The notes under the pieces were generated by a model. It was not told the DNA's origin. It saw only the letters and a program-made list of their open reading frames with translations, and did no database searches. Below, in pieces: positions 5,301 to 61,282 of a stretch of 64,000 bases of DNA. Source of the DNA: Mytilus galloprovincialis (lineage: Eukaryota > Mollusca > Bivalvia > Mytilida > Mytilidae); contig NC_134838.1 in assembly GCF_965363235.1 (NCBI RefSeq), positions 12,184,441 through 12,248,440 of the forward strand, read 5' to 3'. Position numbers and translations under genes: made by a program. Every line of letters starts with the position of its first letter. Position 1 is the first letter of the stretch.

Positions 5301-8300
5301 TGCCCCACCTACGATAGTAGAGGGGCATTATGTTTTCTTGTCTGTGGGTCCGTTCTTCCATCTGGTTTGCTTGAGGTTAAAGTTTTTGGTCGTTTTTTTT
5401 TGTATGAAGTTGAAATCTAATCAACTTTAAACTTAGTACACTTGTTCCCTATGATATGATCTTTCTTATTTTAATGCCAAATTAGGGTTTTTACCCCATT
5501 TCACAGTCCACTGACCATAGAAAATGATAGTGCGAGTGGGGCATCTGTGTACTGTGGGCACATTCTTGTTTTGAGAATGTTTCACTTTCTTTCTATATAA
5601 CATATCTTTTCATTGAGCTATGGACAGAAGTCAATAATTGATAACACTGGCTGGGTAAATAGGGCTTATGTGTCCTCAGAAAACATCTAGTTATACTTTA
5701 AAAATGTTTAAATTTTAGGCTGCCAAAGAACAGACACATGATCTTATAAACCAGACAACTAACTTACATGCAGAAAGGTGAGGTTACATAACCATATCAA
5801 ATTTGTTATATTTATTTGGACGATTAAAAGGAAAAGAACTTTGAAGTATACAAGTTCAATCATGTATTAAATAAAATATGTGGTATGATTGCAAATTAAA
5901 CAGTTTACAACCAGAGACCAAATGACATAGATATAAGCAACCATACAGCTTTCAATAATGAGCAAAACGTATACATTATAGTAAGCTATTAAAGGTCATG
6001 AATGAAAAAATGTAAAACAAATCAAAAGAGAAATCAACAGCCTGATGTTCCTGTCTCAAGTCATATTTCAATGTTTATTGTATTTTCAGATTTTTGTGTT
6101 GATTGCACATGGTCAATTTTTCACATATTTTGAGACTCAGCATTTTAAAAGTTTAACATGTTCGGCACAAGTTGCTGCAAGTCAGAATTTTTCACTAATT
6201 TTCTGTTAATACATACAGTATTTCAGGATAACTTTGACCCATCTTATTCTGTTCTGAATTTCAGACACCATTAATTTCAAATTGGCTGATTATGTCATTA
6301 CTAGTTAATATCATAGGAAATTAGTTGATAATCAAAAGTATTTGTTTATTTTCTTTTTTAGTCAAACACTTCATATGAAGGCTCAGGTTGCAGATGCTTT
6401 TCTTGCCAAGTTTCAGTTAAAGCCAGAAGAAGTAAAAGCACTAAGAGGAACAAGGGATGGATCTATTCATCTGGTAAACAGATAAACTACAGTAGTGATA
6501 TCAATAAAAGAATTTCTGATTTATAAAAGTATACAGTAGCAGTGTTGCTGCTGTATTCATATCTGTAAGGGATACTACGTTCTGTACAAAGTTTGATTGA
6601 CTGCTGGTTGCTTGATATTTAGTTGAAAATATGATTTGCAGATCTTGATAGGACAAGTGTACACAATAATTATAATTGATCAGATAAAAAAAATTGAGTT
6701 ATAGTACTGCAATAGATCATTAGATGTTGTTTTAAAATTGATATTTTCTAAAAAGAAAATACTGTGGATTCATAATATGTCGTGAGATACCTATTTTGAG
6801 CTCACCTGGCCTGAAAGGCCAAGTGAGCTTTTCTCATCCTTTGGCGCCTGTCATCGACCATTAACTTTTACAAAAATCTTGTCCTCTGAAACTACTGTTC
6901 CAAATTTAACCAAACTTGGCCAAAATCATCATGTTTTATCTAGTTTAAAAACTGTTTGTGATGATCCCGTCTGACAACCAACACGGCTGACATGGCTAAA
7001 AGTAGACCACAGGTTTAAAATGCATTTTTTGGCTTATATCTCTGAAACTAAAACAAAAGTATAATGGTTGCATTATTTCATGGATCAATTGTAAACAAAA
7101 ACATACAGTGAGAGAAACAGGCTCCTTGGAACCAAGGAGCCTATAGTTGTACATTTTGTCATTATAGATTTACCACAAATTTTCATGTTCAACAAAATTC
7201 AATATTCCGTTCTTTTGAGCAGAATTTGTCAAAGCCGTCAAATCAAGTATCCCCCAAATATTTCGTCTTCCATCTATGAAAATTAGTACCAACAAAAAAT
7301 GAATCCAGAGTGTATGGAATGAATTTGTAAAAGACTTTATTTCCATAAAACAAAATACTAAAATGTGAATGGACATGTCTTGCTATTCATGATCTTAAAT
7401 GCTTTTTGAGTCATATGCCACATATTTCTTTGAAGAAACATTCCCAAATTTCCATAAAACTGATACCTGTTCTGTATGATAAATTAAAAATGGTAGACTT
7501 TTTATCTGAAGAGAAAAACTTCCCAAATATTTTAAAGGAAGTGTTATAAAGTTTGAGTGAAAACAAGGAATGATTCAATTGATACATTTTAACATTGTGT
7601 ATTTTCAGGATTTTTTCCAAGCTCTTGAGAAAGTGAAGAAGATACATAATGATTGCAAGGTTTTATTAAGAACCAACCAGCAGACAGCAGGGTATGTATA
7701 ATAAAAATAATAAAACAGTAACAATGATACACACAAATTCGATATATTTATGGTGATTAAAATCATTTAAGCCAATAAGGATGATAAGGTTAAAATTATA
7801 TGTTGGCAATAGTGTCTTAAATGTATTAGAGCCGATTGCATTGAGTATGTAGGCAAAAGTAGTATCTTTGGTTAGCTTGCTTGGTAGCTAAACCATGAGG
7901 TTATTATCAGGTAAGGTATACTACCCTCCTTTCGAAGTAGTCTAGTCCTACAGAAAGATAGATTGGTTATCTGTCAGACTAGTCTACTCTTAAAGAAGGG
8001 TAGTTTACCCAACCCAATTATGACTTCAAGGTTCAGCTAGCAAGCAAGCTAACCAAAGATATAACCTTTGCCTACACTCTCGATGCAATTGGCTGTAAAG
8101 TTGCCTTCACTTATATTAAGTAATTTCATGTACATATTTAAACTCAAAAATTGTTTTTTAAAGATAGATGTTCCAAAATAAGTTTTGCCAACTGTTTCTT
8201 TGTTCATAATCTTGTATTGATTAGATAGATGACATGGCAGAGAAGTGTTTTCTTTATGAATGAGATTTAAGATGATAATTTTAAAAACAAATGCAACATT

Positions 8301-11300
8301 GCTAGGACACACATTATTTATATTGCTTTTGATATGTTTAGATTAGAGATAATGGAAACTATGGCTTTACACCAAGAATCAGCTTACGAAAGACTTTATA
8401 GATGGACACAAAGTAAGTACTATAGTATAAAAAATCAGCTTATGAAAGACTTTATAGATGGACACAAAGTAAGTACTATAGTATGAAGAATCAGCTTATG
8501 AAAGACTTTATAGATGGACACAAAGTAAGTACTATAGTATGAAGAATCAGCTTACAAAAGACTTTATAGATGGACACAAAGTAAGTAGTATAGTATGAAG
8601 AATCAGCTTACGAAAGACTTTATAGATGGACACAAAGTAAGTACTATAGTATCAAGAATCAGCTTACAAAAGACTTTATAGATGGACACAAAGTAAGTAC
8701 TATAGTATCAAGAATCAGCTTACGAAAGACTTTATAGATGGACACAAAGTAAGTACTATAGTATCAAGAATCAGCTTATGAAAGACTTTATAGATGGACA
8801 CAAAGTATGTACTATAGTATGAAGAATCAGCTTACGAAAGACTTTATAGATGGACACAAAGTAAGTACTATAGTATCAAGAATCAGCTTAGGAAAGACTT
8901 TATAGATGGACACAAAGTAAGTACTATAGTATCAAGAATCAGCTTACGAAAGACTTTATAGATGGACACAATGTAAGTACTATAGTATCAAGAATCAGCT
9001 TATGAAAGACTTTATAGATGGACACAAAGTATGTACTATAGTATGAAGAATCAGCTTAGGAAAGACTTTATAGATGGACACAAAGTAAGTACTATAGTAT
9101 GAAGAGTCAGCTTACGAAAGACTTTATAGATGGACACAAAGTAAGTAGTATAGTATGAAGAATCAGCTTACGAAAGACTTTATAGATGGACACAAAGTAA
9201 GTACTATAGTATGAAGAATCAGTTTACGAAAGACTTTACTAGATGGACACAAAGTAAGTACTATAGTATCAAGAATCAGCTTATGAAAGACATACCTTCC
9301 AACTTTCACGATTTAGGCGTGTACTACACGATTTTGACCCTTTGTCACGATTGCACGATCGTGATCGTGAAAAACCCTCTAAAACACGATTTTGTGAAAA
9401 TCTACACGAAAAATATGATTGTTCCCGATTTTGAACTGTGTCCAATGGAATACAATTGTGTTCAGCCAATCAAATTCTATGTTTCTCATGATCAAATTAA
9501 TCAGCCAATCAAAAAAGTTTTCTCTCAAGAATATTCTAACATCCTAGATTTTGAACTTGTGTTGTATTCCTCTGTTTTAAAATCGTGAACATGGCAAATG
9601 GTTTTTCACCTGCAAGGAGGTTCTTACACAGAATAAGAATAAAAGCATGACTGATTGACAAACTTCAATGATGCAGTACTACCATAAAGATAATAAATAT
9701 TAGTTTACTCATAATTTATTGATATTACACTTGCTGTTACAAATGTTATAAATTTTTGTATTCAATTAAATTACCAAATTATTTAAAGTACAATGTACTA
9801 TTCTTTATTTTTCACATGGACAAAAAAAAAACCACATGAGGAATCTCTTAAATGAGGGACTTCCCTTAGTCAAGGGGTCATTTTACTCTTGTAAAAAATA
9901 AAATAGAAAAATCATTAAATGTAGATTTTTTAACTTAAAAATGGGAAATTCTGACATTATATTTAGAACAACTTTTCCAAATGAAGGGTCCAATTATTTT
10001 GAAAAATAAAGAAGATAAAAGGCCAAGAACATATCAAAATTCTTGGACATGTGTTGACCATATAATACCAGATAGATCATTTATAAGATGTAAAGTTCTT
10101 TGTGAAAAGTTTCTTCAAATAATATGAATATGTGCTCATTTTTACTTAAAAAGTGTTTTTTAATGTCCTTACATTGAGGGGTTACCCCTAGGTGTTGTTC
10201 CCAACCTGATAAAGGTCCTTCTTTGTGCATAATTTTAAATTGGAAAAGTCAATAATTATTTAATATCCTTACACATGAAATTAATTCCTGTCTTGCAGCC
10301 ACATGTTCATCTTTTCTACTGATATATAATAACTAGAATCATGCAAATAAACTTAAGAAAAAGGCATGTAAGCTCATCTTACAAATATGACACTTTTTCT
10401 AGACCACAAAACAGCACGCGCAAAATAGTTGTCGCAAAGTATTGTAACCTTTGAAATTGTTGTCGCGCACTAAAACCCCCATTGGCACTTTCAAAAGTTG
10501 GCAGGTATGGAAAGACTTTATAGATGGACACAAAGTAAGTTCTATAGTATGAAGAATCAGCTTACGAAAGACTTTATAGATGGACACAAAGTAAGTACTA
10601 TAGTATCAAGAATCAGTTTACGAAAGACTTTATAGATGGACACAAAGTAAGTTCTATAGTATGAAGAATCAGCTTACGAAAGACTTTATAGATGGACACA
10701 AAGTAGTACTATAGTATCAAGAATCAGCTTACGAAAGACTTTATAGATGGACACAAAGTAAATACTATAGTATGAAGAATCAGCTTATGAAAGACTTTGT
10801 AGATGGACACAATGTAAGTATGTAGCTTAATATCAAATTAATTAATCTTGACCAGTGTTTAACAATTTTTTTATTGGTCTTATATCTTGTAATATCCTGC
10901 AAACAAAGTAAGCTATGGTTGTTTACTCTTGCACATAATACCTGATGCTGCCTATATAATGTTGTAATTCCTGCTGTGATCTTAGTCATTTTCTTATAAT
11001 TTATATCATGAATCAAGTTTACATATTAAATGACAGAATATAAGTTCAAGGTCATAGCTAAACCATGTTGCGTTTTTCAATGCATGTCTGAATGAATTAA
11101 AGGTTGGCCAATCAGCATTCAAAAATATGTCTGTCCTTTTTAATGGAGTAGAGTATTTCAGTTGACCCAGTTTAATGTGTGAAGGCCAAAGCCTCTTTTA
11201 ATACATATTCTAAAATCTCTGTGAAACCCCATGCAATTGCTGCTTTTCAATCATACCAATAAAATGTATTGTACCGTATCTTTGTTGTTCAATTTTATAA

Positions 11301-14300
11301 CCAATTATTATACAGTTAGATAAATGAGATGGACCCAAGCTTTCCTTAACTCATTCGCCCCCAAGACATTTTTGGAAAATCAGGCATTTTCGAAAATTTG
11401 CAAACATATGCAAATTATATGCAAATGAGCAAACTCCTGATGCTGTAACTGATGCTCATCTATTAAACTACTTATTGGGATTTGGGGGCGGATGGCATGG
11501 GTGGGGGGTGGGGTGGGAGGTGCAATATTTTCTCGTGGGTTTGAACCCACCCCCAGTGAAAAATGGTAATTTTCCGTCTATTTTCCGATTTCAAAACGAC
11601 CTTGAGAGGTGAACACTGACACGACTGTGTTTTTTTGTCATTCAAGTATTACCCTATAGTTACAGTAGTCCATTCATGCTAGCTGGGAGTATATTGGACT
11701 TCAGTGTCTTGCTTGGGAATTATTATTGTCAAGTCAGGTCTGCCTAAATGTCCGTTTTTATGGATTTTTGACAAAACGGTGACCTAGATTTTACAGACTA
11801 GATTCCTATTGGCCATATTATACCTCGTTGTGTTCCTATACCACCTATGCATGCATATATGATAATAGTTTTTACCAACAGTCACTTCCAGTTACGTAGT
11901 GGCCATCAAAAGATGCCCACCCCCACCTGATTTTGGCTACTTTTCATGTTTTTCCGATTTTGAACTCTTAAACGGCTTTCAAAGAGCCATATTTTCATGA
12001 ACAGACATCTGAGAAGAGTTGATGGACCATGAACTGCTTGGTTGAAGTCCCTGCTATCATGACAGTTCAGCTGGGGCAGTTCAAAAAAAGTATGGAGGGT
12101 CATACGGGCCATCAAAGAATGGTTGTCGCTATCACGCCTACAGGCGGGATTGGGGGTTAAAGGGTTAAAGGGGCAATAGCTGTCAAATTCATGTTCACCA
12201 ATTTGACTCAAATTCTCATATTTTATTTATAACAATGTAAAACATTTTTCCAACCTGTCAAAAGTATGAAATAAACAATTTACAGGCCATGGTCTCAATA
12301 AGATTTAGCTTCGTTTCGTGTGAAATTTAGCCTAGACGCCATCTAATTAGCTTTAAAGTTGACCTTTCTTTGACCATATAAGCGATATAAACATAAACAT
12401 AGATATGAATAGATTAAGCAAATTGTGCTTTTTGATTTTTATAGGTCTGTTAAATTTTGTATTATAGATTAAACATTTATGTTTATCGTCGTTTTTTCCT
12501 TTATAAGAATATTTTTTGTGGATCGAATCAGTCAATCAAATTATTTACCTTTGTTTCACTTTCAATGTTGACATTCTTTTCCTTTAAATAACCGTACACG
12601 GACAATGCATGCATTATTCTATCTATTTCTACAGGGTTAAATTGGAGTTCACATGAATACAGATTTAATGGGGTCGAATTATTCACTTGCAAGTGAATAA
12701 TTCATTAGCAATTCTTATTAGCTTAATTCGACAAAACTGAACCATTTTAGCTGCTAAAAGCAAATTATTATTTCACTATTTCACTTTCATTAATGATTGA
12801 AGAAAAAAAATCCTATTTTAGATTTTTTATATATCTCGTAGCTAGTGCCCCTTTAAGAAGTAAAAAATGTAAAAGACCAAAAAAATTTTTTAAAAATTGC
12901 ATTTAAAATTGCATTTTTTTTTTTTAAGCTAAACCAGTGTTAATTATAATCAACTTTTATAGTCGTGAAAATGTGTATAATGTTTTATTCAGAGATATAA
13001 ATACATTTTTAATCCTTGTCTGTTTTATTTTAGATGACTGCAGGACCTTGACAGGGGATTCCCCTGATGTATCTTCCATGTTATGTCAAGCCATGGAATC
13101 ATTGCAAGACAGACCTGTCCTGTATAGGTAATTTTGTTTTTGTTTCTTATAGTATGACATGTACTTTATTGCTAGTATTTAAAATGGGTTCCTCTTGGTT
13201 AGCAGGTGCCCAGTTACTCTCCTGTCTAAGTAAATCTAGAAGGTTTGAGTGTTCTCTGTTTGTAATTTTTTCTAACTAGAGATGGTCTGAATAAGCCGTT
13301 TCAGAATCTAATGCATCTTTGGTAATATTTTCAACCAATGATGTAACATTATTTTCATTTGGGGGTACAAACAATGAAATTAACCATGGTTCTTTAGATT
13401 CTGAAAAGACATTTTACAGATGGAACAGCTAGTACAGAATAGGAATTATTATTTGAACTTGATCCTTCTTATAAAAATGAAAAGACAGGTCAACCCTTAA
13501 ACATTAAAATTGATAAACTTTTAATTTAAACTTAAGAATCTTCTCATTTCTGAAATTAAAATTCCATGTTTTTTTTTGCTGTTTGTTTTGATACTCTAAA
13601 TGATTAGTTTGTTGTTCAGCTTTCTTAATTCATATAGTTTATCCATGATGAAGTTCTAGAACAATGTCTGAATATGGATTGTTTAATTTAGGTACACCCT
13701 TGATGAATTTGGTACTGCCAGGAGAACAGCTGTGGTACGAGGTTTAATAGATGCTCTGACAAGGGGAGGTAAGCTTTTTTTTTCTAGAACATGCTCCTAG
13801 AGGTACCATAAATTCAGAAATTATTGCATGCATTTGTTATAATGTTTTTCGAAAAAATGACAAAAATGCCAGATTATTTTTTGTGATTTCTGGAAAATCT
13901 GCATACAGATATATTGACCAGACATTAGAAATCAAGTTCTTATTATTGTGATATTCACACAGTCCCATTACAAGCATTAGTAAAAACCACACAATAATTT
14001 ATGAATATCAGTAGTTAATTTCTTATGAAATTAACAACATGATGTTCTGGTATGAAGCTAATTTATTCCTTATTTAATGTGAATGCAATTCTTCCTAAAT
14101 CTATCCAGTTTGCCTAGAGGCCTATCCTTTCTTTTGATAGCCTATTATGAAGATAACAAATTCTATAAATTTATTCTTACCTTCTATTGTAGGACCAGGT
14201 GGTACCCCAAGACCAATAGAACTGCATTCCCATGATCCTTTGAGATATGTAGGTGATATGTTGGCATGGTTACATCAGGCTACTGCATCAGAGAAAGAAC

Positions 14301-17300: not shown

Positions 17301-20300
17301 TATATTAACAGAGATCCCTTAAAATTTCTGACTGTCTGGTGATAAAAAAGGCAATTACATTTACATCAATATTAACTTTGCAGAAATCTAATACAGTACA
17401 AATAGATACACAAAACTGAATATTTGTTAACAGAATAAAAAAACATTTTATGGCACTCATATTATAAACTGATTTGAGATTATAGATGTAAACAAAAACT
17501 ACACAAGTTTAAGGTGCATTTATTTTAATTTGGACAATTCTTTTCAGATTTTAAACAGTATAGTTGACCCCTTAGTACAGATGTGTTCTGTGTCAGCGAG
17601 TAGATTGAACACGTCTGATATGGCCACCTATATGATAAACTGTATTTATCTGATCCAGAATACACTTGCTTTGTATGAGTTTACAGATACACGGCTTGAA
17701 ATGTTACAGGCTCAGGTTAGAAAAACATTTTTTTGTCATTAAGGTTGTACCAAACACCTTGACTAAATTAATTAGGCTCGTTTAATCTTCATAAAATTTT
17801 TACAAAAATATAAAAATTTCAAAAAACTTGAACCACACACTTTGTCAGAAAAAAATCATTGGATATATAGCAGTTTCGTAAACATTTATTTTGATCATTG
17901 AGAAGCTTAATATTTCCTAAAAAAATAGAATGTGTTTAAAACGTTCAGCTGATTTTACAGAGTTATCTCCCTGTAGTGTTATGTGCAATAAAGACACCAG
18001 ATTAGAATTGGTAGCTATTAGATCACGCACAAATATTTTCCTGCTTTCTCTGTTGTGGACAACATTGCAAAATCATTTTAAAAGTTTCTTTTTGCACCCT
18101 TTTAAGAAGTGATAATAAAATCAGTAGATTAATTAGATATAGGAAGATGTGGTGTCAGTGCCAATGAGACAACTCTCCATCCAATAGATATAGGAAGATG
18201 TGGTGTCAGTGCCAATGAGACAACTCTCCATCCAATAGATAAAGGAAGATGTGGTGTCAGTGCCAATGAGACAACTCTCCATCCAATAGATATAGGAAGA
18301 TGTGGTGTCAGTGCCAATGAGACAACTCTCCATCCAATAGATATAGGAAGATGTGGTGTCAGTGCCAATGAGACAAGTCTCCATCCAATAAATATAGGAA
18401 GATGTGGTTTCAGTGCCAATGAGACAACTCTCCATCCAAATAACAATTTATAAAAGTAAACCATTATAGGTCAACATGGAGCCTTGGCTCACACCGAACA
18501 ACAAGCTATATAGGGCCCCAAAATTAAGCATTGAATGAAAATTAATTAAGATTGTGACAAAATTATGTGATACTGAAAACTTTTCTTATTGTTACTGGTT
18601 TTCATATCATATCAATATTGTGCAAAGATTAAGAAACAGCAATACATTTGTTTTAGCCCATATTATGATATTTTGATATTTGTACATGTATGATATATTA
18701 TGATATTTTGATATTTGTACATGTATGATATATTTTATTAATTAGGTTGATGCCCAAGTGGATACCCTAGTAAGTGAGCAGGCCTCATTTATATTAAACA
18801 GAGTAGGGTTAGCACATGTGTATGCTAATGTCCAGCAACATCAACCAAAACAGGTTTGTCTTAAATTGTTTGGTTTTGTCAGTTTTGTTTATTGTAAAAA
18901 TCTTAGGATTTTCACTATTAAATGTTTTATTTTATCATACAAATTATGATTTAAGAACTTACTGTAAAGAGAAGTATATCATATTTTCTTACCCATTTCA
19001 GCCTTTAAGTTTTGTGGAATATTTGTATATACATTAATGATTTGCATTACTATGAATGCATGCATGGAATTTTTTTTTTTTGTATATTTATTGTATATTT
19101 AAGTCAATAAAATTTATCCTCAAGTTTTTACATAAATTTTCACAAAGAAATTAAAGGATTATACATTTACTGTAGAACAGATAATAGTACATTTTGGTGC
19201 ACTCATATAATGCAGAATAGTCTTCAATTTCACCCTGAACCATAGGAATGCATTAAGGTAGAAAGGGATACATTAAACAGCTTAAACCTTCATATTATTT
19301 CAGGGACCTTTATCTAATCTCCCAGGAATGGATCCTTTAGCCACAAAATCAGCAATGGTGAGTATGAGATTATGAATTATGACAACATATCAAATACTTC
19401 TGGCGTTATGTTCTCATTATTTCATTCCACCTAAGGCAGGTCAAGAAATCTTATATTTTTAAAAGAAAACTCCTATGCTTTTTATTATGAAACAAAAACA
19501 AAAACCTCTTTGTAATTAGTTGACATTATACTATATCTTAAAGCTAAAATTATTTAAGTGAACCCACACCTGAAGTGGTGATTGTGTGGTAGGGACATCT
19601 GTAGGTATTCACAGTTGTCTTGAAATAAGAATATGTTGCTACAAAAGTCAACAACACTCAATATAGTATGGGTTGAAGGTTAGAGGATTGTTGTGTTGTA
19701 TCTATCATTTTTCCTGTAAAACTTGTATTTTCATTTCACATGCTACATTTTGTCATGCTTCAGCAATTATTATGTACAGAATGTTAATGGCCTTAGTGCA
19801 GACGAGAGACTTCAACAACCATATGAAGCTTTAAAATCTACTAAAAATCTAGATTTTTTTTCAATAAGAAATGTACATTTTTGTCAAGCATTTGACTTTT
19901 GTTGAAAAAGCAAGACATATGGATCCTACATTGCGGCAGCTGTGTCCACAAATAATGTTTTTGAAATTTTAATAACTATCCTTGATTTCTACCAAACTTG
20001 GACAGAAGCTCCTTACAATCAAAAGATAGTATCAAAAAGAATATATTTATTTAAATTATTCCTCATTTCTGTTGAGCCTGCAATTAACAGCAAAAGTAGA
20101 CAAGACACTGGGTTCCGCAGAATTCTTAGAAATTTTTATTTTAATCAAGATTGCTTTCATTATAAATGGATAAAGAAAGGTTTCATGTCTGAAGTTTTAC
20201 CATTTTGTTACTTATAGGGAAATATAAGTTGGTATAGACATGATTCAAACATGATTTTACTGTATGTGAATTTTGTATTTTCAGAATAAATTTGACAGCT

Positions 20301-25772: not shown

Positions 25773-26648
25773 CTAAAATCTCATAGCTTTCCTGGCATAT
25801 CTGCGTTTTTCTCCAGCTGTCCACGACTTTGACTTGACTCGGAAATGGCGTAAATCTTCTGAGTGGTCGGAATGAAGCATTGGTCGATAGCTCACTGGGT
25901 CACATAGAGCTGCTTGTTCATTAAAGAATGCCTTGTAGCCACTATCTAGTAAATAAATTTCTGGAAAGTTCAGTAATGGATAGTTTTCTTTATTCAGTTC
26001 TCTGTCTTTGCTTCTGAGAAATCGTAACATTTTAGGGCCTCTTTCGGACGAAAACTCACAGTGGAAGATAACTATCTGTTTATCTTTGGTCGGTTCTTGA
26101 AGCAAAGTTAAAATGGTCTCGTGCAAATACATATTCTCTGCTCCTCTGACATGCCCACCTTCAAACTCATACGGGTATCGGCAGTCGATGATCTTGTAGT
26201 CACTGATGACGTCATTGTAGTGTCCATTTACAACATCAGCAAGTGTCTGTGAAGTGATGCTTTTCAAATCAGAATGCTTTCCAGTAACAGTTGGTAAAGT
26301 ATGTAATCTACTACCATCGGCAATAAAGTCATCGTTCTCTTCAAGTTTGGTTACCACAGCTTTTATATCACTACAAACTTTTGGTCGTTTTGAACACGTT
26401 ATGTTGTCATCTTCTGTACACCGTCTCTTAGCAGATTTCGTCAAGGTATGTTGTAAAGTAAAATGATCATCCATACCGAGGCCAGAATCCTCGTCATCAT
26501 CAGGAAACAAACTCCGTTTGATGTTTGGAGTCATCACAGACATAAGATTATCGGCCTTTACTGGAGTGGCATCAAAACTCAGTGTTGATACAGAGGCTGA
26601 TATTGAATCAAAGTCACAATCTGTGTCGAATAATCTTTTGGAAAGCAT
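25773..26648 (-). CDS. CDC25: CDC25-type dual-specificity phosphatase, intronless copy 1
   Basis: CDC25 phosphatases remove the inhibitory phosphates from Thr14/Tyr15 of cyclin-dependent kinases and so trigger cell-cycle transitions. The 291-residue product ends in a complete rhodanese-fold catalytic domain (about residues 125-275): IIDCRYPYEFEGGHVRGA, the active-site loop HCEFSSERGP (Cys nucleophile, Arg), FPEIYLLDSGYKAFF, then the C-terminal LRHFRVKSKSWTAGEKRR tail. The regulatory N-terminus is only about 125 residues, against 200-350 in vertebrates. It carries TP sites, a KRSLF cyclin-binding (RxL) motif, an EDSGLGMDD motif and basic KRR...SKRPK clusters like a bipartite nuclear signal. 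One uninterrupted frame covers the gene. The ATG at 26646-26648 is chosen because copy 2 begins at the same place with the same residues (MLSKRLFDT). No intron borders are seen, which suggests a retrogene origin. Confidence 0.93.
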   Translation of the reverse strand: MLSKRLFDTDCDFDSISASVSTLSFDATPVKADNLMSVMTPNIKRSLFPDDDEDSGLGMDDHFTLQHTLTKSAKRRCTEDDNITCSKRPKVCSDIKAVVTKLEENDDFIADGSRLHTLPTVTGKHSDLKSITSQTLADVVNGHYNDVISDYKIIDCRYPYEFEGGHVRGAENMYLHETILTLLQEPTKDKQIVIFHCEFSSERGPKMLRFLRSKDRELNKENYPLLNFPEIYLLDSGYKAFFNEQAALCDPVSYRPMLHSDHSEDLRHFRVKSKSWTAGEKRRYARKAMRF

Positions 26649-26746
26649 AATTGTTGTTTGTCTGAAATCTGACTGTCAAGAAGAACTATTTGGATTTTTA
26701 ATGCTGAAATATGAAATATTATGAATTTATATTTAAAAATTTTGAA

Positions 26747-29631: not shown

Positions 29632-32469
29632 TTATTTTATAACTTCTCCTGGAATCCATTTAATCTTTGAACCAATTGCGAAATTTCGGGCAAATACCCC
29701 CTGTCCTACATTAATTTGTCTGTTCACAGATTTCTTATCGTGATAATGTTTCTGTTTTTGTTGTCTCTCCTGAACTCGCTTCTCGATATTTGGAAAAACT
29801 AAATCTAGACGTGACTTGAGTTTCCTTTTCATTAGCAATTCTGACGGTGCCAGTCCTGTCGTTGTTTGTGGCGTAATACGGTTCAACTTTTCCTGGATAG
29901 TTCCTTCTTTGATTTTCTTCATTCCTTCTTTGTATACAATCGTGTACTCATATGCAGCTAAAGTCAGTGCCCACCTTTGAATTCGAGATGCGGCCATTGT
30001 AGGTATAGGTTTATCTTCTCGAAATAAACCTATGAGCGGCTTGTGATCGGTTATGATTGTAACGGGGTGTCCATACAAATATTGATGAAATTTCTTGATA
30101 CCAAATATTATGGCCAGACTCTCCTTCTCAAGAACGGAATAATTCTTCTCTGCTAAAGTAAGTGTTCGAGATGTATAAGCTATTGGTTTGTCACTGCCGT
30201 CGTCCATTTTATGCGAAAGTACGGCGCCTAATCCATACGGAGATGCATCACATGCTAAGATTAATTTCTTTTTCGGATCGAAATGTACAAGTACTGATGC
30301 GGATTTCAACAGCTGTTTTGACTCTATGAACGCTTTTTCCTGTTCTTTTCCCCAACTCCATTTTGTGTCTTTCTGTAGAAGTACATGTAGCGGCTTTAAC
30401 AAGTGAGACAAATTCGCTAAGAATCTATTGTAATAGTTCAGCATTCCAAGATAAGCTTTCAGTTCTGTCACGTTTGTCGGACTTGGTGCTTTATCGATCG
30501 CCTCAACTTTACTCTCCACTGGATAGATTCCGTGTTTGTTTATTTTAAATCCCAAATAAACAACTTCTTCGGCCATGAACACACACTTCTGTTTCTTTAA
30601 CCGAATTCCGATTCTCTTAAATCTAGACAAAACCTCAGAAAGAGTATTTAGATGTTCCTCTCTTGTTTTACCCGTTATCAGTATATCATCTACTCGAACC
30701 AAAACATTGGCTATACCTTGAACTACATTTTCAAGTGTTCTTTGAAAAATACCTGGGCTGGACGCTACACCATAAGGAAGTCTATTGTATCTGAATAAAC
30801 CCTTGTGCGTGTTTATAGTCACATACCTTTTACTGTCCTCATCAAGTTCAATTTGTTGATATGCTTGGTTTAAATCCAATTTTGTATATTCTTGTCCTCC
30901 TCCAAGCGTTGCGTATAAATCCTCTGTTTTAGGAATCGGATAATTGTCTAACTTTGAAACGGCATTAACGGTTACCTTGTAGTCACCACAAATTCTAATA
31001 GATCCGTTCTCTTTAACTACGGGTACTATCGGAGCGGCCCAGTCGGAAAATTCCACTTGCTGAATCTGACCCTCCTTCTCAAGACGTTCAAGTTCCTTCT
31101 CCACTTTATCCTTCAACGCATACGGCAAAGGTCGAGCCTTGAAATATTTTGGTACGGCACTCTCATCGACATAAATCTTGGCACTCATGCCTTTTACAGT
31201 TCCAAGTTCATCTTTGAAAACCTCCTTATTTGCTTCCAAGATCACATTCAAATCACTCGATTGATTATCACTTCCAACGACGGAGAAAATATCCTTCCAA
31301 TCCAGTTGGAGTTTGTTTAACCAGTCTCTGCCAAGTAAATTCGGACCTTTACGCTTCACAATCAGTAATGGCAATTTTGCTCTTTCCTTCTTATAGTTGA
31401 CATTAACGATTGTACGTCCTATTACAGGAATCTGCTCTCCCATGTATGTACGGAGTTTAGCACTTGTCGGTTCGATTCTGAATTTCGACTTGTATTCCTT
31501 GTAAGTATCCTCGCTCATGATAGAAACTGACGCTCCGGTATCTATTTCCATGGCTATTTCACACTCATTCACATTGATTTGCACTTTATATGCCTCATTA
31601 GATTTATTTCCAAAATGAAAAACTGAGTAAACTTCATTTTCACTTTCACTTTCGCTAGTTTCATCCTGCTCCATGAAATGAGCACGTGGTTTAAAACGTG
31701 ATTTAAACTCTCTGTGATTTTCACTTAACTTCCCATTGTCAGATTTGCTACGGCATTTCTTTGCGATATGTCCTTTCTTTTTACAGCTGTGGCATTTTGC
31801 ATCCTTAAACCTGCATTCAGCGGCTAAGTGATTTCCTCCACACCGGTAACAATCTCCTTGTTTCGAATTTCCAGAGTTGTTTCTTGTATATGATTTTGAA
31901 ACTTTATTGATTTGTTTCTGAAATGTTCCATTTGTCCCACTCGCTTGGATGTCCTTTGCATTCTTCTCTGCAGTCTCCATAGCGGTAGCAATTTCCAATG
32001 CCTTATCAAATGTTAAATTCGGCTCTGCTAGCAGCCTCCTCTGTATGCGGTCACTCTTTATCCCGACGACTAACCTGTCACGTAACATCGCATTTAACGT
32101 GTCACCATAATTACAGTGTTCTGTCAGACTTCTTAGTGCTGCAATAAATGTCCTCACTGACTCATCGCTGTGTCTTGTTCTACTGTTAAATTTAAATCTC
32201 TGAATGATTTCTGATGGTACTGGATCTCGGTGGTCTTTCACTAGTTTTGTTAAATCGGCCAGTGACTTCGTTCCTGGTTTGGCTGGTGCTAATAAATCCC
32301 TTATTAATTTGTAGATATTCTTCCCACATACACTTAAGAAAATATCCCTTTTCTGGTCTTCTTCGTCTATCTCATTAGCATTAAAATAATGTTCCATACG
32401 TTCTACATATTGTGTCCAATCTTCGGATTCACCAAAAGAGTCTAATTTCCCGTAAGTCGGCATTCTCAC
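29632..32469 (-). CDS. gag-pol reading frame of the Ty3/gypsy element (fossil part)
   Basis: The 945-residue frame belongs to the LTR element. In order it shows a gag capsid-like part, two CCHC zinc knuckles (CYRCGGNHLAAEC and CHSCKKKGHIAKKC), a retropepsin motif (EIDTGASVSIM), a reverse transcriptase of the Ty3/gypsy type (LPYGVASSPGIFQ, RVDDILITG), RNase H (LACDASPYGLGAVLSH, ITDHKPL) and an integrase C-terminal-like end. Gag and pol share one frame, as in several gypsy lineages. A further minus-strand frame at 29344-29604 ends RYPKRIRKEPSHLKDF, typical of the pol end of such elements. The element as a whole is broken. Confidence 0.93.
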   Translation of the reverse strand: MRMPTYGKLDSFGESEDWTQYVERMEHYFNANEIDEEDQKRDIFLSVCGKNIYKLIRDLLAPAKPGTKSLADLTKLVKDHRDPVPSEIIQRFKFNSRTRHSDESVRTFIAALRSLTEHCNYGDTLNAMLRDRLVVGIKSDRIQRRLLAEPNLTFDKALEIATAMETAEKNAKDIQASGTNGTFQKQINKVSKSYTRNNSGNSKQGDCYRCGGNHLAAECRFKDAKCHSCKKKGHIAKKCRSKSDNGKLSENHREFKSRFKPRAHFMEQDETSESESENEVYSVFHFGNKSNEAYKVQINVNECEIAMEIDTGASVSIMSEDTYKEYKSKFRIEPTSAKLRTYMGEQIPVIGRTIVNVNYKKERAKLPLLIVKRKGPNLLGRDWLNKLQLDWKDIFSVVGSDNQSSDLNVILEANKEVFKDELGTVKGMSAKIYVDESAVPKYFKARPLPYALKDKVEKELERLEKEGQIQQVEFSDWAAPIVPVVKENGSIRICGDYKVTVNAVSKLDNYPIPKTEDLYATLGGGQEYTKLDLNQAYQQIELDEDSKRYVTINTHKGLFRYNRLPYGVASSPGIFQRTLENVVQGIANVLVRVDDILITGKTREEHLNTLSEVLSRFKRIGIRLKKQKCVFMAEEVVYLGFKINKHGIYPVESKVEAIDKAPSPTNVTELKAYLGMLNYYNRFLANLSHLLKPLHVLLQKDTKWSWGKEQEKAFIESKQLLKSASVLVHFDPKKKLILACDASPYGLGAVLSHKMDDGSDKPIAYTSRTLTLAEKNYSVLEKESLAIIFGIKKFHQYLYGHPVTIITDHKPLIGLFREDKPIPTMAASRIQRWALTLAAYEYTIVYKEGMKKIKEGTIQEKLNRITPQTTTGLAPSELLMKRKLKSRLDLVFPNIEKRVQERQQKQKHYHDKKSVNRQINVGQGVFARNFAIGSKIKWIPGEVIK

Positions 32470-32524
32470 TTGTAGAAATTCACATTTATTTTAATATTCA
32501 GTTTTTTTCCTCGTCGCCAAAATG

Positions 32525-34463: not shown

Positions 34464-35339
34464 CTAAAATCTCATAGCTTTTCTAGCATATTTTCGCTTT
34501 TCTCCAGCTGTCCATGACTTTGATTTGACGCGGAAATGGCGCAAATCTTCTGAGTGGTCAGAATGGAGCATTGGTCGATAGCTCACTGGGTCACATAGAG
34601 CTGGCTTTTCATTGAAGAATGCTTTGTAGCCATTATCTAGTAAATATATTTCTGGAAAGTTCAGTGATGGATAGTTTTCTTTATTGAGTTCTCGGTCTTT
34701 GCTTCTGAGAAATCTCATCATTTTAGGACCTCTTTCGGACGAAAACTCGCAGTGGAAGATAACAATCTGTTTATCTTTGGTTGGTTCTTGAAGCAAAGTT
34801 AAAATGGTCTCGTGCAAATACATATTTTCTGCTCCTCTGATATGTCCGCCTTCAAATTCATACGGGTATCTGCAGTCGATGATCTTGTAGTCACTGATGA
34901 CGTCATCGTAGTCTCCGTTAACAACATCAGCAAGTGTCTGTGGAGTAATGCTTTTCAAATCAGAATGTTTTCCAGTGATAGTTGGTAAAGTATGTAATCT
35001 ACTTCCATCAGCAATGAAGTCATCGTTCTCTTCGAGTTTGGTTACCACAGCCTTTATATCTGAACAAACTTTTGGACGTTTTGAACATCTTGAGTTATCG
35101 TCGTCTGCACGCTGTCTCTTGGTAGATTTCTGCAAACTTGATGTAAAATTAACATGATCATCCATACCAAGACCAGAATCCTCGTCATCATCGGTAAACA
35201 GACTTCGTTTGATGTTTGTAGTCATCACACACGTAAGATTATCGGTCTTTACTGGAGTATAATCAAAACTAAGAGTAGATACAAATGCTGGAAATGTGTC
35301 AAATTCATCCACTGTGTCGAATAATCTTTTTGAAAGCAT
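34464..35339 (-). CDS. CDC25: CDC25-type dual-specificity phosphatase, intronless copy 2
   Basis: It has the same length (291 residues) and organisation as copy 1 at 25773-26648. The catalytic half is nearly identical (about ten differences in the last 156 residues) and keeps the HCEFSSERGP active-site loop and the C-terminal SKSWTAGEKRK tail. The N-terminal 90 residues differ much more: MLSKRLFDTVDEFDTFPAFV here against MLSKRLFDTDCDFDSISASV, TTNIKRSLFTDDDED against TPNIKRSLFPDDDED, and a rewritten stretch after MDDH. The intact frame and the concentration of changes outside the catalytic domain suggest that both copies are under purifying selection. Non-coding homology with copy 1 extends about 130 bases downstream and about 350 bases upstream, so the pair arose by DNA duplication of an already intronless gene. 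Confidence 0.93.
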   Translation of the reverse strand: MLSKRLFDTVDEFDTFPAFVSTLSFDYTPVKTDNLTCVMTTNIKRSLFTDDDEDSGLGMDDHVNFTSSLQKSTKRQRADDDNSRCSKRPKVCSDIKAVVTKLEENDDFIADGSRLHTLPTITGKHSDLKSITPQTLADVVNGDYDDVISDYKIIDCRYPYEFEGGHIRGAENMYLHETILTLLQEPTKDKQIVIFHCEFSSERGPKMMRFLRSKDRELNKENYPSLNFPEIYLLDNGYKAFFNEKPALCDPVSYRPMLHSDHSEDLRHFRVKSKSWTAGEKRKYARKAMRF

Positions 35340-35434
35340 TGTGGTTATTTATCTAAATTCTTACTGTCAAGTATTAGGATTTAAATGTTTAATGTTGAAA
35401 TTTTACAAATGTTGAATTTTTATATTAAGTTTTT

Positions 35435-59400: not shown

Positions 59401-61282
59401 TGCATATGGGCAAGTTGGTGTCGAAAAATTTGTCACTGAGATTGGAATTATCTTAGAATTCCATATTGCTAGGTAATCAGTTAAGGTATAAAATTACCAT
59501 CATTGATCAGCTTTGAATCCTTACCTATCATTATACAACCAGGCAAGGAATTCTTTAGATTTGTAGTAAGAAGCTGGTCCTTGACCATCGGCCAGATCTG
59601 CCCATAATATCTCTGGTTTGTATCTGTTCACAAGTTCATACAGTTCAGGTAAAGCCTTTGACTGCCAAGAAACAAAAATGATTTACAATTCGATGAATAT
59701 ATAAAATTTCTTGTAGATGTACACTGACTATTGAACTACAGTTGGGGGTTCACATGTATGGACTAACAACCTTTAATGAACTAAATTACAAATGAACTAT
59801 AAGAATAAGACTAAACTTCACAGGATACTAAAGTTCTACGTGATAATTTCATGATTAATATTTTAAGTTTGTTTTTGTGTTGTAAACTATTTGGTGATGA
59901 CAGTTTCTAGTTTTGGGGATATTTAGGGCTTTTAATATTTTGTATAGACCCTTGTTTATTGTTGGTTACTGTATGTTGACCTTTAGATGTCCTTTTATGG
60001 TCTTCATGCTGTCACAATGACGTACATCACATTTCTCCTCATTCAAAAGATTTATGGAGATGACTATATTAGGACTACAAAACTTACCAATACAAAGCTT
60101 TGTGTAGTGAAGTTGTTCGCCTTATCTTTCATATACAAGGGATGAAGCCATTCGGATATACAGTAGTATGTACCGAACTTAAGATCTGTTTTGTTCCTTA
60201 TAGCATTAGCTAGGTCTCCTAAAATGATTCTACAGTTCATATCAAACTAAAATATATAAATGCTAATTAGTATAATAAAAATAGTGGAAATTTTAGTGAA
60301 TAGCTCACATTCAGTTTTGATTGATTGATTGATTGTTGGTTGCTTATCTTTCATATACAAGGGATGAAGCCATTCGGATATACAGTAGTATGTACCGAAC
60401 TTAAGATCTGTTTTGTTCCTTATAGCATTAGCTAGGTCTCCTAAAATGATTCTACAGTTCATATCAAACTAAAATATATAAATGCTAATTAGTATAATAA
60501 AAATAGTGGAAATTTTAGTGAATAGCTCACATTCAGTTTTGATTGATTGATTGATTGTTGGTTGCTTAACGTCCAGTGGCAAATATTTCATGCATATTCA
60601 GGACGAGAACAAGTTCACAATAAATACAATAGGTAGGTTGTTGTAATAGAGGCCATCTAGGATGATGGTCAGGGAAATTTGGACTGCCACTGGAAAATGA
60701 GGGTATATTGGATAGGGACAGAAATTTTGCCTTGCAACAGGCCACCTACGGACCCCTCAAAGAGTTGTTGCAAGGGTTCTTAACGTGCAAAGAGCGTGGC
60801 ACTCTCTTTACACGAGGCATCGGATTTAACGTCCCCTTCTGACGGACGTGACTGCGAACTTGATACATCCCGCACAGCCAAACGGACGCCCCACTTCAGC
60901 AAGCGTTTTACTGCCGGTCGGGAGAAGACCAAGTGACCATATTTCTATACCCCAGTCACCCTTGGAGCCATTCAGTTTTGATATGCAACATGTACATTGC
61001 CAACACATTTTCTAGTTATCAGCCATACAGACGACCTTCCATATATCTTATTCTCTCATAGGCTTAACTGTAATAAAGATAATTCAGACTGTTTTAATCA
61101 TTTTTGTTTGTAATAGGGAATATTGGAAACAATATTAATTCAGTAGCAATTCATCATTAGCATATATGTACTTACCAACAAGGTCCCTATTAGGTCCTAC
61201 TGCTTTTGCATTCCAGTTGAAAGAATGACTAGATGGCCAGTTTGGAAAGCCTTCACCGTGTTTACTGGTCAGGACAACATAT
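53495..61282 (-). CDS. FUCA: alpha-L-fucosidase (GH29), last seven exons
   Basis: GH29 alpha-L-fucosidases are usually lysosomal or secreted and remove alpha-linked fucose from glycoconjugates. Exons on the minus strand, in order: 61282-61176, 60218-60088, 59661-59525, 58763-58666, 58170-58038, 57625-57455, 53756-53495, all with GT/AG borders and compatible phases. They encode 345 residues plus stop; whole family members have about 460, so roughly the first 110-120 (signal peptide and start of the barrel) are missing, presumably beyond the window. Family blocks: [40 protein letters not shown] (the Asp is the expected nucleophile), [56 protein letters not shown] and the C-terminal beta domain ending MFKLTNIAN. 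Two oddities: HHEGF of the family is HGEGF, and the WSDGEW-type block is [10 protein letters not shown]. Part of the second exon is duplicated upstream. Confidence 0.93.
54167..56932. mobile_element. candidate 2.8-kb DNA transposon in the last fucosidase intron
   Basis: TTAAAGGGAAACTTCGCAAA at 54167 and the complement of TTAAAGGGATAATTCGCGA at about 56932 form inverted ends. Diverged pairing continues inward (TATTATGTTTAT, AAGTTTTATTCTG). Interior frames are AT-rich and unrecognised. The ends are real but far apart, so two separate short elements are an alternative. Confidence 0.45.
58350..58482 (+). repeat. fragment of the 'ATGCCCCACCTAC' repeat
   Basis: TTCCCTATAGTATGATCTTT to GGGGCATCCGTATACTTTGG, ACACATTCTTGTTTC matches the 3' part of the copies at 3681-4446 and 5295-5570. 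It lies in a fucosidase intron. Confidence 0.8.
60121..60564. repeat. 222-bp tandem duplication covering part of a fucosidase exon
   Basis: 60121-60342 and 60343-60564 are nearly identical. Each contains the 5' part of the fucosidase exon with its 3' splice site (exon start at 60218, duplicate at 60440). The duplicate has no splice donor: after ...YMKDK its frame continues into [11 protein letters not shown] and intron sequence. The junction lies at a GATT microsatellite next to GGTTGCTTA, where another repeat begins. Confidence 0.93.
60565..61015. repeat. bivalve GGTTGCTTAACGTCCAGTGG repeat
   Basis: It begins GTTGCTTAACGTCCAGTGGC, AAATATTTCATGCATATTCA, and ends with a TTTCTATACCCCAGTCACCC block. 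Internal CGAGGCATCGGATTTAACGT recurs in worn form at 51460-51480. The minus-strand frame at 60826-61008 is a by-product. It lies in the fucosidase intron after exon 61282-61176. Confidence 0.7.

Follow-up and report, generated by a model that had tools for sequence, protein, structure and literature searches.

The window analyzed here, a stretch of 64,000 nucleotides of Mytilus galloprovincialis DNA (contig NC_134838.1, positions 12,184,441 to 12,248,440), carries on its plus strand a COG6 exon of 71 nt (8342-8412) that opens after the acceptor TTTAG|ATTAG, an intron of 4,621 nt (8413-13033) and the next COG6 exon (13034-13127), which is assigned by homology and frame. Joined together, 8342-8412 and 13034-13127 encode a peptide of 55 residues (the first base of the 71 being omitted) that matches the Pfam COG6_C family with an E-value of 9.1e-18, its residues 1-54 aligning with profile positions 5-58; the junction 8412/13034 is in frame, with 54 residues falling on 54 profile positions. 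Two COG6 stretches located farther downstream also match COG6_C in Pfam (5.9e-15 and 3e-16), and the comparison of the COG6 pieces with solved structures gave no useful match. The in-frame join to 13034 and the homology to COG6_C bear out the initial annotation in taking 8412, the end of the first unit of the array described below, as the true exon end. Its division of the donor as AAAG|TAAGT was wrong, as CAAA|GTAAGT is the only cut that joins 13034 in frame; by reading the sequence, the former cut would meet a stop immediately, and the coordinate 8412 is unaffected. Since the coding exon joins the next one without gain or loss, no new intron is evident in COG6 as judged from the sequence, and the array lies inside an existing intron. 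A later COG6 exon, coding for 86 amino acids, matches the genome once, so that COG6 appears to be single-copy, and the existence of a second COG6 copy was rejected on the same grounds. Upstream of the amplified exon, positions 7826-8098 of the window hold an inverted repeat with arms of 129 nt that are 80% complementary, which looks like a small foldback element.

The 3' end of the 8342-8412 exon is amplified within the COG6 intron as 22 donor-bearing units of 56 bp (anchored on the bases that precede the donor), each containing about 39 nt of exon and about 17 nt of intron, the cut point within the 56-bp repeat being arbitrary. The spacing between units is 56 bp except for one case of 57, one of 55 and the gap occupied by a transposon, which divides the array into a block A (8374-9290, plus strand) with units 1-16, the first part of unit 17 and 16 donors, and a block B (10510-10813, plus strand) with the rest of unit 17, units 18-22 and six donors. 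Tandem Repeats Finder reports a 56-bp array at 8374-9291 (16.4 copies, 95% matches between neighbours) and a second stretch at 10510-10820 (5.6 copies, 93% matches between neighbours). The COG6 exon end and its donor are therefore tandemly repeated as originally described, and the count of about 22 copies of 56 bp holds, but not their arrangement in a single continuous block. Similarly, the statement that almost every copy keeps the donor is true of the GT dinucleotide, which is kept in all 22 units, but not of the complete motif AAAGTAAGT, which is kept in just 16 of them; the six altered donors comprise two with GTATGT, two with AAT before the GT, one with GTAGT (a base having been lost) and one with GTAAAT. 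The real unit 1 carries the donor common to 16 of the 22 units, and 16 of the 18 forward occurrences of AAAGTAAGT in the window lie inside the array. This motif does not belong to the strongest class of donors, scoring 5.2 versus 8.7 for CAGGTAAGT with a donor matrix. The 56-bp unit also contains the palindrome TACTATAGTA. In a search of the 1.385-Gb assembly in which the best candidates were scored and very common words were skipped, the unit was found only at the COG6 locus, and a dispersed satellite family that had captured a piece of COG6 was rejected on this basis.

The transposon, which the initial annotation had overlooked, lies inside unit 17 (9291-10509, plus strand; 1,219 bp) and has terminal inverted repeats. 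Its repeats read CATACCTTCC.../...GGCAGGTATG, with CATACCTTCCAACTTT and AAAGTTGGCAGGTATG at the two ends of this copy and CATACCTGCCAACTTT as the ends of the family, and it lacks a long open frame (the longest being of 98 aa). When the best 40 of 2304 candidates were scored, its sequence was located at 49 places in the genome, and at least 28 other places cover nearly the whole transposon with 88-96% identity. A duplication of GAAAGA flanks the element, the left copy occupying 9285-9290 (plus strand) and the right copy starting block B. Among eleven other copies, the longest flanking direct repeat measures 6 bp in six and 7-10 bp in four, and the copy L014, for which the match begins within the element, has a 4-bp flanking repeat; the copy in the array shows a 7-bp flanking repeat, the last base of which was assigned to the end of the element. 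On our reading, the target duplication of the family would be of 6 bp. Compared over 1214 positions with the majority sequence of the eleven other copies, the copy in the array shows 15 differences. Because it sits inside unit 17, an array of some length already existed when it inserted.

The exon was extended to each of the 22 donors, joined to 13034 and translated. Donor 1 (GTAAGT, 8413-8418, plus strand), the one expected to be used, leaves the frame open and is the sole donor to keep it; donors 2-22 all lead to a stop at the same codon number, located in the next exon for donor 2 and within the array for donors 3-22. The frame shift to a stop that the initial annotation had predicted for the second donor is hence confirmed, and it applies likewise to donors 2-22. 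Since all of these stop early, a frame preserved at every third donor is ruled out, and the generation of protein diversity through the in-frame inclusion of three units was rejected. We also rejected RNA structure as a factor steering donor choice, as three stretches composed of the exon and first units fold no better than shuffled sequences (z-scores of 0.46, 0.44 and -0.48).

Arrays of donors were searched for across the genome as donor 9-mers occurring three in tandem, 40-65 bases apart, with the motif read backwards as a control. For AAAGTAAGT, the search gave 605 tandem matches versus 133 backwards, with 32,306 versus 59,387 single occurrences (1.87% versus 0.22%), and for CAGGTAAGT it gave 147 versus 17, with 10,610 versus 10,824 single occurrences (1.39% versus 0.16%). 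Per motif, tandem-donor matches are thus 8-9 times over-represented with respect to the mirror-image motifs, in counts that are not independent because matches overlap within arrays. The motif AAGGTAAGT yielded 285 tandem matches versus 25 backwards, with a small number of large contig 1 arrays accounting for most of the listed places. A 71-bp array with dozens of AAGGTAAGT donors, the unit of which reads like coding sequence, extends on contig 1 over at least 130134531-130140290, the places listed ending inside it. The motif CAGGAAAGT, in which a single-base change destroys the donor, produced 13 tandem matches in 6 arrays and its backwards form 230, indicating that a non-donor motif can score high, perhaps through one large array. 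Counted as arrays, AAAGTAAGT is found in 18 and its mirror image in 4 (contigs 1-3 and contig 4 up to 80.2 Mb), the 18 arrays being those in the first 100 of the 605 places, and CAGGTAAGT forms at least 32 arrays among the first 100 of its 147 places.

To a sample of 24 arrays that includes COG6 and consists of the 18 AAAGTAAGT arrays and the first six CAGGTAAGT arrays listed, we applied an exon test requiring a pyrimidine tract, a YAG and a frame that stays open up to the first donor, within 25-300 nt. The test was passed by 17 of the 24 arrays. Sites taken by chance passed it in about 30% of cases, namely 128 of 422 among the GTRAG sites of the window and of these loci and 1184 of 4000 among random positions, and the binomial P is about 5e-5; stricter pyrimidine counts retained 9 of 24 arrays versus 579 of 4000, and 4 of 24 versus 184 of 4000. 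The initial annotation had regarded an array of equivalent donors as very unusual, which does not hold in this genome because donor-bearing arrays are so numerous in it, with at least 18 for AAAGTAAGT, at least 32 for CAGGTAAGT and the above proportion of those sampled passing the exon test. The exon test is weak by itself and homology consequently matters more. Two arrays with homology, L046 (2.5e-9) and L057 (0.011), are missed by the test; L048 and L049 pass it and look unconvincing by eye, and L027, L041, L044, L051 and L054 fail it and are non-exonic by eye. The latter seven were left out of the homology search, which took in the other 17 arrays.

Eight of the 24 arrays begin in an exon that matches a named protein with E<0.001. 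Four of these exon ends are matched in Pfam, namely COG6, the A2M bait region (an array of just 2.2 copies with 81% matches), CIA30 and UBR4, and the others correspond to casein kinase 1 gamma, MCM6 (1.5e-10), ITPR2 (1.9e-4) and the glycogen debranching enzyme (1.6e-7). Two further exon ends are matched near an E-value of 0.01, one by zf-FCS, below the Pfam cut-off, and one by DOCK6. The other seven of the 17 arrays searched gave nothing useful: no match was obtained for L028, L039, L043, L045, L047 and L056, and L040 gave a chance-like match alone (LemA, 0.066). For L053, L055 and L057, which are without a meaningful Pfam match, homology rests on solved-structure sequences, and L042 (contig 2, 6508300-6509700), where an MCM6-like exon end is repeated about nine times with a 30-bp unit, matches MCM_N at 0.21 in Pfam and MCM6 at the E-value given above among solved-structure sequences. 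The array at L031-L038 (contig 1, 116425320-116429438) is longer than that of COG6: a 74-bp unit, composed of the end of a zinc-finger-like exon (zf-FCS, E-value of 0.012, below cut-off) and a donor, is present there at least 38 times. In ten control arrays of mirror-image motifs, none of the ten consensus units has a GTRAG donor, and some single copies in L072-L073 hold GTAAGG.

Exon starts form arrays as well. The acceptor-like motif TTTTNCAGG gave 507 tandem matches versus 230 backwards, with 85,683 versus 101,478 single occurrences, which amounts to a difference of about 2.6-fold. Eight of the 13 acceptor arrays in the first 100 places, picked by us, were fetched, and in seven of the eight the last copy opens, by eye, into a coding-like frame. 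Among L075-L081, the arrays compared with Pfam, matches above the cut-off were obtained for RNase P p30 (1.2e-11), cation efflux (3.7e-7) and protein kinase (7.2e-9), and PDEase_I (7.9e-5) fell just short of it; L075 and L080 had no Pfam match, and L079 had chance-like matches alone. So the real exon corresponds to the first unit at exon ends and to the last unit at exon starts. The genes at L076, L077, L078 and L081 are like RPP30, a cation efflux transporter, a cyclic nucleotide phosphodiesterase and a protein kinase, respectively.

The conservation of the copied donors was assessed in two arrays. Among 16 COG6 units, the donor positions (-3 to +6) show 3 changes over 9 sites (0.33 per site) versus 21 over the 47 others (0.45 per site), in a comparison that omits units 1, 16, 17, 20, 21 and 22, three of which have altered donors. 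With 18 COG6 units there are 4 changes in the donor and 22 elsewhere, and 32 of 48 nine-base blocks equal the donor in conservation or surpass it. In the 38 units of L031-L038, the donor presents 7 changes over 9 sites (0.78 per site) versus 76 over the 65 others (1.17 per site), and 29 of 66 blocks are conserved as well as the donor or better. Stop codons make up 2 of the 11 codon changes in the exon parts of the COG6 copies (16 units) and 3 of the 69 in those of L031-L038. As the donor sites vary as much as their surroundings, nothing in these sequences points to selection on the copied donors, with a power that is modest because the copies are very alike. Hence, the constraint on donors that would be expected under a U1 sponge or a poison-splice switch was not found in either of the two arrays.

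Minisatellites spanning exon-intron boundaries, known as mirages, have been described in the Adh3 and globin genes of amphioxus, with units of 10-72 bp and 150-160 bp and at both 5' and 3' boundaries (PMC3087553), and a troponin C mirage and similar PGBD5 repeats have been added for the same group (PMC3902484). According to the first report, the BflGb6 mirage has 6 and 3 units in two haplotypes, mirages show length instability, Adh3 data and globin RT-PCR suggest undisturbed splicing, and the mechanism was left open by its authors, whose model has mirages yielding new introns (PMC3087553). Counting nothing but tested features, the COG6 array presents every mirage feature open to test: its 22 tandem units each span an exon-intron boundary, the coding boundary is that of the copy adjoining the rest of the exon (unit 1 in 8342-8412), splice signals occur in many copies but not in all, and similar arrays recur in the genome at the 5' as well as the 3' boundaries of exons. 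On these features, the COG6 array is probably a neutral mirage over an exon-intron boundary, in which splicing proceeds from donor 1 and removes copies 2-22. It shares with the Adh3, troponin C and BflGb6/BflGb9 mirages the short boundary-spanning units with splice signals in many copies, and the mussel genome shares with that of amphioxus, where units measure 10-160 bp, the involvement of both 5' and 3' boundaries; unlike them, it belongs to a different phylum, and the 22 and 38 copies seen here compare with 6 and 3 in BflGb6. Furthermore, genome-wide over-representation was measured in the mussel, whereas normal splicing and length instability are those reported in amphioxus. In the potato RdRp case (PMC4974935), a tandem duplication over an exon-intron boundary likewise supplies new splice signals; in COG6, in contrast, the array lies inside an intron that already existed. 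A minisatellite in a TSSK1-like gene of abalone (PMC6905558) is also a mollusc intron array, the number of units of which varies between individuals, but it has a 27-bp unit that is not described as spanning an exon boundary, the consensus printed in that report is without a GTRAG donor and it corresponds to an ordinary intronic minisatellite. In a literature search that was short on subscription journals, we found no report of exon-boundary arrays in mussels, bivalves or molluscs.

Such an array probably originated by a tandem duplication over the exon-intron boundary; the resulting minisatellite would then have grown farther into the intron, presumably through unequal exchange. An intron of 4.6 kb and an exon of 71 nt suggest recognition across the exon, and under exon definition, which is assumed for COG6 from intron length, the upstream acceptor would pair, over the 71 nt of the exon, with the donor closest to it. 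Donor 1 would then win by cross-exon proximity and copies 2-22 would leave as neutral intron, whereas a slip to a later donor would introduce a premature stop into a transcript that would probably be degraded. The expectation that donor 1 prevails and that splicing removes the array is based on the minigenes of Carranza et al. 2022, in which, of two identical CAG/guaagu donors placed 52 nt apart, the upstream one was exclusively used under exon definition (PMC9225289). These minigenes resemble COG6 in that a single acceptor is followed by identical donors at a spacing of about 50 nt, and differ from it in that they contain two engineered donors assayed in transfected cells, in contrast to 22 natural ones. 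In the same source, short introns favour the downstream donor, and Reed and Maniatis, in work recounted there, saw a preference for the downstream donor when pairing takes place across the intron (PMC9225289).

Given that 16 of the 22 units, the real one included, have the same donor, leakage to later donors is possible. The array might then be neutral but leaky, with donor 1 mostly used and a measurable amount of mis-splicing that is removed by nonsense-mediated decay and imposes a mild genetic load. Equal donors in tandem and the early stop that follows from each later donor are in agreement with this proposal, as is the human genome-wide observation that, when the donors are nearly equal, just 60% of events favour the upstream one (PMC9225289). 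If the near-equal filter is not applied, the downstream donor is preferred in about 60%, and in a majority within all four intron-length classes, as given in the same account (PMC9225289). The exclusive use of the upstream donor in identical-donor minigenes (PMC9225289) argues against leakage, as do the amphioxus mirages, which were reported not to yield aberrant mRNAs (PMC3087553 and PMC3902484), and we regard appreciable leakage as rather unlikely.

It had also been suggested that the array could act as a U1 sponge or a regulated switch. Here, the copied donors would constitute a regulatory device, serving either as a poison switch for COG6 level or as a local sponge of U1 snRNP or protection from early polyadenylation. 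The retention of GT in every copy and of AAAGTAAGT in most of them, the early stop produced by each alternative donor, as a poison switch needs, and the genome-wide over-representation of donor-bearing arrays are what such a device might present. However, donor positions are conserved no better than the rest of the unit in the two arrays analyzed, 6 of the 22 donors are already altered, a transposon interrupts the array, the arrays occur in unrelated genes and exon starts form arrays too, which the U1 model does not predict. With no extra conservation of the donors, and with identical-donor minigenes using the upstream site exclusively under exon definition (PMC9225289), the suggestion is unsupported and a regulatory role is distinctly improbable. 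Tandem repeats are easily mis-assembled, but a false expansion of the array in the assembly is exceedingly improbable, given that its units differ in patterned ways, that one of them contains a transposon with its own flanking duplication, that the unit, among the best candidates scored, is found only at the COG6 locus and that other arrays of the same form exist in the genome.

If exon boundaries are affected 8-9 times as often as mirror-image motifs, and just part of the motifs are real donors, random neutral duplications do not readily account for the excess, and the lack of constraint on the copies makes selection for the arrays less likely. We tentatively suggest, with somewhat more doubt than conviction, that exon boundaries act as mutational hot spots at which minisatellites are born, by way of processes linked to transcription, R-loops or splicing, and that many genes carry long donor or acceptor arrays beside real exons as a result. 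If this were true, the arrays would represent a standing supply for new exons and introns, as well as a large natural experiment on the choice among identical splice sites. Identical natural donors behind one acceptor offer a direct test of the exon-proximity rule, and the genome-wide set suggests that minisatellites at exon boundaries are no peculiarity of lancelets. With so many cases in one genome, moreover, the origin of the arrays and the possible seeding of introns become testable.

The window contains other repeats and open frames. About 400 bp past the last COG6 stretch tested, positions 18134-18439 comprise six copies of a 51-bp unit with 97% matches, and a sequence similar to this unit adjoins the control array L068. 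On the minus strand, 25773-26675 and 34464-35348 are long open frames with a rhodanese-like domain that are 87% identical in protein sequence and are possibly intronless copies; we take them to resemble CDC25 phosphatase. Between them, also on the minus strand, lies an open frame of 952 aa (29632-32490) that reads, by eye, like a Ty3/gypsy-type polyprotein. Finally, two tandem copies of a 222-bp unit with 100% matches are found at 60121-60568, reflecting either a very recent duplication or an assembly effect.
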